Of a stretch of 47,005 bases of DNA, positions 11,150-36,057 are shown in pieces; positions within the stretch are counted from its first letter, which is position 1, and every line of letters begins with the position of its first letter. Below the pieces are notes generated by a model. The model made no database searches and had not been told where the DNA came from. It worked only from the letters and a program-made list of their open reading frames with translations. The DNA comes from an uncultured SAR86 cluster bacterium (GTDB taxonomy: Bacteria > Pseudomonadota > Gammaproteobacteria > Magnimaribacterales > AG-339-G14), in contig CACIUX010000008.1 in assembly GCA_902589965.1 (NCBI GenBank), positions 1 to 47,005 of the forward strand, given 5' to 3'. Position numbers and translations under genes: made by a program.

Positions 11150-11926
11150 GTGATTATTGTTCTTTCTCCAGCTAAAACATTGGATTACGAAACTCCAATG
11201 AACGGTATTGATTATACCGTTGCCAATCATTTAAGTAAGTCTGCTGAACTTATCAAGACTTTAAAGTCTTATGAGACTGAAGATATATCCAAATTAATGG
11301 GGTTAAGCAGCAATTTAGCGTTTTTAAATTTTGAGCGTTATCAAAGCTGGAAAAAGCCAACCAAGCCTAGTGCGGATGCCCGTCAAGCAGTGTTTGCTTT
11401 CCAAGGGGATGTTTATCAAGGTTTAGAAGCTGCAACCATGAAAAAGGGCGATCTAAAATTTGCTCAAAAACATTTAAGAATTCTCTCTGGTCTATACGGA
11501 GTGCTGAAACCTCTAGATTTAATGGCGCCGTATCGTTTAGAAATGGGCACCAAGTTGGCTACGAAAAAGCACGATGATTTGTACGGTTTCTGGAAAGACA
11601 CTCTCACTGCGGATATCAATGAACAATTAGCGGAGCAAAAAGATTCAACACTAATTAACCTTGCTTCCAACGAATACTTTAATGCTTTGAATAAAAAAGA
11701 CATCGCTGGTGACATCATCAGTCCAGTTTTCAAAGATTTCAAAAACGGTGATTACAAAATCATTAGTTTCTTTGCCAAAAAAGCTAGAGGTATGATGGCA
11801 AGGTATATCATTGATAATAAAGTTACCAATCCCGATGGATTAGCTACCTTTAATTACGGTGGTTATAAGTTCAACGCGAAGCTTTCACAAGACAACGCGC
11901 CAACTTTTACTCGAAAAACTTCTTAA
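11150..11926 (+). CDS. yaaA: Peroxide stress resistance protein YaaA
   Basis: A member of the YaaA/DUF328 family (cytosolic, DNA-binding; in E. coli lowers free iron and oxidative damage under peroxide). The N-terminal SPAKTLDYE, the central [24 protein letters not shown] block and the late INLASNEYF are family signatures. A start at GTG 11150 gives [11 protein letters not shown], matching the family's N-terminus; an in-frame TTG at 11132 would add six residues that fit poorly. The protein then has 258 residues, the usual size. No clear ribosome-binding motif is seen. The stop overlaps the stop of the convergent crotonase gene (TTAA). Confidence 0.95.
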   Translation: [258 protein letters not shown]

Positions 11927-34702: not shown

Positions 34703-35770
34703 TCAACCTTTGTGGCGTCCCTGTAAATAATCATTAGATTGCATTTCAGTTAGCCTGCTTAAGGTCCTTTGAAATTTATCGGCAAGTCTTTTACCGGTGT
34801 ATATTTCATGTGGAAGAGGGTTGGATAGAAAAATTACTTTAACGTTTCGATCGTAACATTCATCTATAAAGGCTATGAATCTTCTTGCTGAATCTTCCTC
34901 TTCAATTACATTCAGATTGGAAATAAAAATGGTATGGAACTCTCTTGATAACTCGATATAGTCTGATGAACTTCTTGGGGAATTAAAAATTACATCAGCC
35001 GAAAAATGAATAATGTCGTTTGAAGAATCTTCAAAGGCAATCTTTCTACCCAAAATATCTATCGTACTTTGCCCAGAATTAGCTCCTTTAGATAATTGTT
35101 GGAATAATTTATTAAAGCTGCTTATTTTTTCAGAATCTATGGGGGAGAAATAAATCCCGCTTTTTTCTAATTCTCTTAATCTGTAGTCTGTTACTGACTC
35201 CAGACAAATAATTTCGCAATGGTTTTCAATAGCAGATATTGCAGAGAGAAAAGATTTTCGCTGTAATCCACCCATATAAAGGTCGCTAGGTTTTATGTTT
35301 GAGGTGAAAACCATTTTAACTTTCGAAGCCAATAGCTTTTCTAGTGACCTGCCAAGCAACATGGCATCTCCGATGTCTTCAACATAAAACTCATCGAAGC
35401 ATATAAGGTCATAATCTCTCTCTAATTCTGAGACCACAATACTTAAAGGGTCAGTTTTTCCTGATAACTCGGCTAATCTTGCATGGATTGATTGCATGAA
35501 TCTGTGGAAATGTTGACGAATCTTTTTCTCAGTACCTACCGAATCAAAAAATAAATCCATGAGCATTGTTTTACCTCTTCCAACGCCGCCATAGATGTAA
35601 ACACCTTCTAAAGAATTAGAAGATTTTCTGAAAAATCCTTTTATATTCTCAAGGATTCCATCCCTAACTATATTTTCAGAGAGGATCTCAAGTATTTCGA
35701 TAATTTTGAGCTGATCAGGATCCTTTTGAAGGATTCCTGATTCAACTTGCGCTAAGTATTCTTTTTTCAG
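34703..35770 (-). CDS. zapE: Cell division ATPase ZapE, non-canonical start
   Basis: An AFG1-like AAA-type ATPase that E. coli uses at the division septum. The Walker A motif GGVGRGKT is encoded upstream of the first in-frame ATG (35566). Translating back to the stop at 35785-35783 gives ESLILKKEYLAQVESGI and onwards, which matches the ZapE N-terminus, but no ATG, GTG or TTG occurs there. CTG at 35770 (giving MKKEY) or ATT at 35773 (touching the previous stop as TAATT) must start it. The length is then about 355 residues, near the E. coli 375. Later motifs are CFDEFYVEDIGDAMLLGR, TSNIKPSDLY, GLQRKSFL, RRFIAFIDECYDRNVKVI and RTLSRLTEMQS. Alternatively there is a sequencing error or a mutated start. 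Confidence 0.85.
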   Translation of the reverse strand: MKKEYLAQVESGILQKDPDQLKIIEILEILSENIVRDGILENIKGFFRKSSNSLEGVYIYGGVGRGKTMLMDLFFDSVGTEKKIRQHFHRFMQSIHARLAELSGKTDPLSIVVSELERDYDLICFDEFYVEDIGDAMLLGRSLEKLLASKVKMVFTSNIKPSDLYMGGLQRKSFLSAISAIENHCEIICLESVTDYRLRELEKSGIYFSPIDSEKISSFNKLFQQLSKGANSGQSTIDILGRKIAFEDSSNDIIHFSADVIFNSPRSSSDYIELSREFHTIFISNLNVIEEEDSARRFIAFIDECYDRNVKVIFLSNPLPHEIYTGKRLADKFQRTLSRLTEMQSNDYLQGRHKG

Positions 35771-35772
35771 AA

Positions 35773-36057
35773 TTAGACTTTCTTATGAACTGTAATCTCA
35801 GGAGCTCCTGCCATAAAAGGGGCTAATGCCATTCCAAGCGTTTTGAAATGTTCTGTTTGTGAATGACTTTGATGAGCTTCTTCAGTTTTATATAGTTCTA
35901 TCATCATAATGGTTTGAGGGTCATCGGTCTCATGCATTTCATAGTAAAAACAATCAGGTTCATTATCAGCTACTGCTTGAACCAATTTACCCATGGCTTC
36001 TATAAAATTATCTCTATCCCCGTCTTTAATTTTTAATTTAGCTATTACTCCAATCAT
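35773..36057 (-). CDS. Antibiotic biosynthesis monooxygenase (ABM) family protein
   Basis: The protein has 94 residues with the ferredoxin-like ABM fold. The opening strand IGVIAKLKIKDGDRDNFIEA, then EPDCFYYEMHETDDPQTIMMIELYKTEEAHQSHSQTEH (read as successive strands and a helix, residues 34-72) and a final FM-GAPEITVHKK fit the family. Members are quinol or flavin monooxygenases (YgiN-like) or haem-degrading enzymes; the substrate is unknown. It shares its TAA stop with the region that begins zapE. It diverges from the GST gene; a 10-base tandem repeat lies between them. Confidence 0.87.
   Translation of the reverse strand: MIGVIAKLKIKDGDRDNFIEAMGKLVQAVADNEPDCFYYEMHETDDPQTIMMIELYKTEEAHQSHSQTEHFKTLGMALAPFMAGAPEITVHKKV

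Follow-up and report, generated by a model that had tools for sequence, protein, structure and literature searches.

A probable conserved CUG start codon for zapE, apparently replaced by AUA in one genus, in a family of SAR86 bacteria

How is zapE translated in an uncultured SAR86 bacterium in which the gene has no standard start codon ahead of its Walker A motif? The window (the whole 47,005-nucleotide stretch of DNA that was analysed) comes from a SAR86 draft genome that is 86% complete and comprises 20 contigs. It carries zapE, which encodes an AFG1-like ATPase, on the minus strand at 34703..35770 (355 aa when counted from a CTG codon at 35768..35770). Reading of the sequence places the in-frame TAA that bounds the frame on its upstream side at 35783..35785 (minus strand); the codons that follow are, in minus-strand reading, GAA AGT CTA ATT CTG AAA AAA GAA TAC. 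Every codon of the frame was read from this TAA to the first in-frame ATG (35564..35566, minus strand), and no ATG, GTG or TTG was found between them. This ATG encodes an internal methionine just past the Walker A motif and is non-functional as a start. The absence of a standard start had been described in the first-pass annotation, whose coordinates and codon reading are correct.

The same annotation held that the frame encodes a ZapE-like N-terminus followed by GGVGRGKT, and both profile matches and selection agree with it. The product matches AFG1_ATPase in Pfam (PF03969, E 1.5e-106) and the ZapE equivalog in NCBIfam (NF040713; a score of 370.9 bits where 140 is the cut-off, profile positions 2-344 of 344). 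Its Walker A (GGVGRGKT) and Walker B (CFDEF) motifs, read directly, are those of E. coli ZapE, a conditional FtsZ-interacting ATPase that loses ATP hydrolysis when the Walker A lysine is mutated (PMC8503651). The 60 codons 5' of Walker A are under purifying selection in four genera of the family, here g1 to g4 (pN/pS 0.17-0.38). Silent sites at the 5' end of the gene (35710-35770 in the window) are unusually conserved in g1, with a pS of 0.14 in the first ~20 codons versus 0.43 elsewhere in zapE, a pattern that fits an initiation region.

Forty genomes of the window's SAR86 family were surveyed and zapE was found in 35 of them, representing six species of g1, seven each of g2 and g3, and 15 of g4. 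A usable ATG, GTG or TTG start, that is, one able to give the conserved N-terminus and Walker A, is present in none of the 35 copies (0/35); some species have isolated TTG or GTG codons inside the gene, and these are not conserved between species. The start-less state is common to single-cell and metagenome assemblies. Species of the same genus are dependent observations, which weakens the numbers given here and in what follows and leaves their direction unaffected.

The start of zapE appears to be CUG in g1 to g3 and AUA in g4. The CTG at 35768..35770 (minus strand), which would give fMet-KKEYL..., is invariant in all 20 species of g1 to g3. CTG accounts for only 4.5-6% of leucine codons in these genes, and silent sites vary strongly, with a pS over zapE of 0.5-0.66 within g2 and g3. 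Leucine is conserved in 13 columns, and of these the 35770 column alone keeps one codon throughout g1 to g3. The g4 species have CTA (nine species) or CTT (six) at the same column and CTG in none. This provides an internal comparison: the position becomes CTA or CTT only in the genus with the alternative start ATA, exactly where AUA would take over. The assignment is based on the codon invariance, on this exchange of CTG for CTA/CTT, and on the invariant ATA behind GAGG that is described below. CTG at 35770, giving MKKEY, had been named earlier as a candidate start, and its invariance (20/20 species) supports that proposal; the wider claim that zapE uses a non-AUG start is likewise favoured by the family-wide lack of a canonical start together with the invariant CTG or ATA.

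In g4, GAGGAAATAAAATA is invariant in 15/15 species. An ATA stands two codons upstream of the CTA/CTT column in each of these species, and GAGG, likewise invariant, lies ahead of it at a spacing of 7 bases. The 16S 3' end is GGATCACCTCC, which contains the matching ...CACCTCC, so that the GAGG can pair with a normal anti-Shine-Dalgarno sequence. Both the codon after ATA (GCT, GCC, ACT or GTT) and the stop of the upstream gene (TAG or TAA) are variable. The last four codons of that upstream gene in g4, GAG GAA ATA AAA, are all codon-invariant, versus 19 of its 81 comparable columns.

This upstream gene encodes a 94 aa protein with an ABM (antibiotic biosynthesis monooxygenase-like) domain (PF03992, E 2.3e-18); in the window it lies at 35773..36057 on the minus strand, with its TAA stop at 35775-35773. 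It directly adjoins zapE in each of the 35 family genomes that yielded a zapE copy, and zapE is in the -1 frame relative to it. The window junction reads TAA TT CTG A, with 2 nt from the ABM stop to CTG. Across the family the stop-start contacts are CTGA (g2, g3), ATAG or ATAA (g4), and TAATTCTG. No clear Shine-Dalgarno sequence was seen at the junctions of g1 to g3. The last four ABM codons before CTGA in g2 (AAGCTAATAAGC; loci L024, L025, L028-L030, L082 and L083) are identical in 7/7 species while the codons immediately 5' of them do vary, and they may form a reinitiation element that works without a Shine-Dalgarno sequence. Neither zapE nor ABM was found in G003, G007, G008, G021 and G035, two of which are 90-94% complete, in an ABM protein search that included no positive-control genome; the two genes may have been lost jointly.

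The history of the start can be traced on the ZapE tree, in which g3 splits off before g2, leaving g1 and g4 together (94% bootstrap support at both inner forks). Since g3 and g2 lie outside g1+g4, CTG is the ancestral codon of the family and ATA the derived one. The sister SAR86 families (L049-L069, L076 and L081) carry TTG (TTG AAA CC...), and never ATG, at the corresponding position. With these families as the outgroup, the tree points to a change from UUG, which they still have, to CUG in the ancestor of the window's family; CUG would have been kept in three genera and exchanged for AUA in the fourth. The sequence 5' of the TTG start in the sister families differs from that in the window's family.

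A second gene in these genomes offers independent support for AUA starts. In the g1 species read, infC, which encodes IF3, has no ATG, GTG or TTG start and has an invariant ATA (AGAGG TTTAAA ATA GCT; near 11385 of G000:C1 [L180], and also at L174-L176, L178, L179 and L186). Its ATA GCT aligns with ATG GCT in g2 and g3, and infC of g2 to g4 starts with ATG. A possible 10-codon leader ORF (TTG TTA AAA ... AAA TAG) begins just 3' of thrS in g1 and shares bases of its stop with this ATA, an overlap that resembles the ATAG of g4 zapE.

As a control, a single 757 kb contig of G006 (g1) was set against parts of two other genomes, 577 kb from g4 and 254 kb from g2. We looked for genes whose first canonical start was preceded, in both comparisons, by at least 15 conserved residues. 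Of 493 conserved ORFs that remained after removal of antisense shadow ORFs, zapE was the sole protein gene of this kind, and when either comparison alone was enough, a single further gene appeared, whose start is ordinary. The other leftovers were ORFs of the rRNA operon and genes whose alignments extended 8-19 residues into the region before a normal start. The initiator tRNA stem-loop, GGG-CTCATAA-CCC in 36 of the 40 genomes, is standard. A relaxed initiation apparatus in the lineage was rejected on the basis of this tRNA, the normal anti-Shine-Dalgarno sequence and the single start-less gene in 493.

We consider it about 85% probable that translation of zapE begins, by reinitiation after ABM, at the CUG at 35770-35768, and that this is an old, selected, family-wide state in which AUA replaces CUG in g4. 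Reinitiation is likely because the ABM stop lies so close to the start, overlapping it or all but touching it. Ribosomes ending ABM two bases upstream would reinitiate at CUG with the ordinary fMet-tRNA and would make, at a low rate, the full-length ATPase beginning fMet-KKEYLAQ.... For g1 the predicted N-terminus is (M)KKEYLAQVESGILQK; for g4 it is (M)ALKENYLR. In g2 and g3 reinitiation would take place on a CUG that overlaps the ABM stop, and in g4 on an AUA that overlaps it (AUAG/AUAA), helped by the GAGG Shine-Dalgarno sequence. The efficiency of the CUG start in g1 to g3 depends on the assumed reinitiation, as no clear Shine-Dalgarno sequence is seen there. Figures quoted in PMC11497404 put the yield of CUG in E. 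coli at ~0.86% of that of AUG, and its share of annotated bacterial starts at 0.024%; on the first of these figures, the ZapE product should be scarce. IF3 represses such non-canonical starts (PMC5472188), so zapE expression may be expected to be IF3-sensitive. A low ZapE dose is plausible, and its purpose would be to hold a division-ring ATPase at a low, possibly IF3-sensitive, level. Initiation at CUG or AUA, the coupling to ABM, the low yield and the purpose of a low dose are what we infer from comparison of the sequences.

Several other explanations place the start elsewhere or remove the need for an unusual one. An ordinary ATG or TTG could be hidden by a sequencing or assembly error, the window being part of a draft genome, or by a mutation in this strain, as the first-pass annotation had allowed; this is refuted, with a negligible chance of being correct, because 34 other assemblies share the lack of a canonical start and have the same CTG or ATA arrangement, so that the state is common to all 35 family copies. 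Comparison with the zapE of close relatives had been proposed as the check for a base error, and with no usable start in 35/35 there is none. Initiation downstream, at the ATG at 35566 (the first in the frame) or at scattered internal TTG or GTG codons, would yield a ZapE without its N-terminus. We regard this as extremely improbable: a start at 35566 would remove the conserved N-terminus and the Walker A motif, on which ATP hydrolysis by E. coli ZapE depends (PMC8503651), the 60 upstream codons are under purifying selection, and the internal TTG and GTG codons are unconserved between species. The earlier proposal of a start at ATT (35771..35773, minus strand), overlapping the ABM stop as TAATT, was correct as to the one-base overlap and fails as to the start. 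ATT is a near-cognate codon that E. coli infC uses and is present in five of the six g1 species, but the sister species G006 has ACT there and keeps CTG, g2 and g3 have no ATT at this place, and CTG is invariant; a start at ATT is accordingly most unlikely. Very unlikely, too, is an ABM-ZapE fusion made by -1 ribosomal frameshifting where ABM ends. The -1 frame of zapE and the A_AAA_TAG at the ABM stop in g4 would suit it, but g1 (AAA GTC TAA) and g2 (ATA AGC TGA) have no slippery sequence; moreover, the 35770 column would then be an ordinary leucine codon, yet CTG is found only where ATA is absent.

It could also be that the CUG and AUA starts are real but have not been selected for weakness, being locked in by the overlap with the ABM stop or maintained by drift. 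In g4 species with the ABM stop TAG, a change of ATA to ATG would indeed destroy that stop (TAG to TGG). Elsewhere the route is open. In g2 and g3, where CTG and the ABM stop share bases in CTGA, a change of C to T is silent in ABM (AAC/AGC to AAT/AGT) and yields TTG, and in g1 the C of CTG lies outside ABM; the C is nevertheless kept in 20/20 species of g1 to g3. By comparison, the same species have 47 two-fold C/T columns in which the residue is invariant; the fraction of C in these columns averages 0.25, and no column is all C. The g4 species G027 and G033 could pass from ATAA to ATGA and still keep the ABM stop, yet this change is absent. In all, 22 of the 35 species are one ABM-silent transition from TTG (the 20 CTG species) or ATG (G027 and G033) and none has taken it, which makes lock-in or drift an improbable account, if one to be taken seriously. 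Selection against a stronger zapE start is the simplest reading of these sequences. Under translation from CUG or AUA, it is conceivable, though we advance it tentatively and at less than even odds, that these codons form a selected, IF3-dependent throttle that would link the amount of ZapE to initiation fidelity and to ABM translation, the lineage having passed from one rare start to the next (UUG, CUG, AUA) and never back to AUG.

Starts other than AUG, GUG and UUG are known for very few bacterial genes, and gene-finding programs take them not to exist. Annotation rules restricted to ATG, GTG and TTG cannot supply the N-terminus and Walker A of these ZapE proteins. If the reading is correct, zapE would be a case, spanning dozens of species, in which a CUG start is conserved and has been replaced naturally by AUA, and would pose the question of why a start ~hundredfold weaker than AUG is retained when a silent mutation would improve it. 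Our search of the literature on SAR86 start codons and on AUA starts found nothing relevant for bacteria.

The closest known systems each resemble zapE in part. ATGA and TAATG translational coupling likewise involves a start that overlaps or touches the upstream stop, whereas the zapE start would be CUG or AUA, not AUG. E. coli pcnB, which has an AUU start, is, as zapE would be, a housekeeping gene kept low by a poor start and differs in codon and gene; we know of no stop-overlap switch for pcnB. The AUU start of E. coli infC is autoregulated by IF3 (PMC5472188). As zapE would be, infC is a conserved gene whose near-cognate start is kept weak for a reason, but it uses AU-N codons and controls its own repressor, whereas zapE encodes an AAA+ division ATPase with a putative CUG or AUA start on an upstream stop. 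Streptomyces sigR has a GTC start that is IF3-repressed (PMC5472188); there, as is proposed for zapE, a non-canonical start keeps the protein low and gene finders misannotate the start, while the codon is a different one and the start was demonstrated by experiment, in contrast to that of zapE, which we infer. zapE is probably a real, conserved and selected addition to the small class formed by infC, pcnB and sigR, with an unusual replacement of CUG by AUA.
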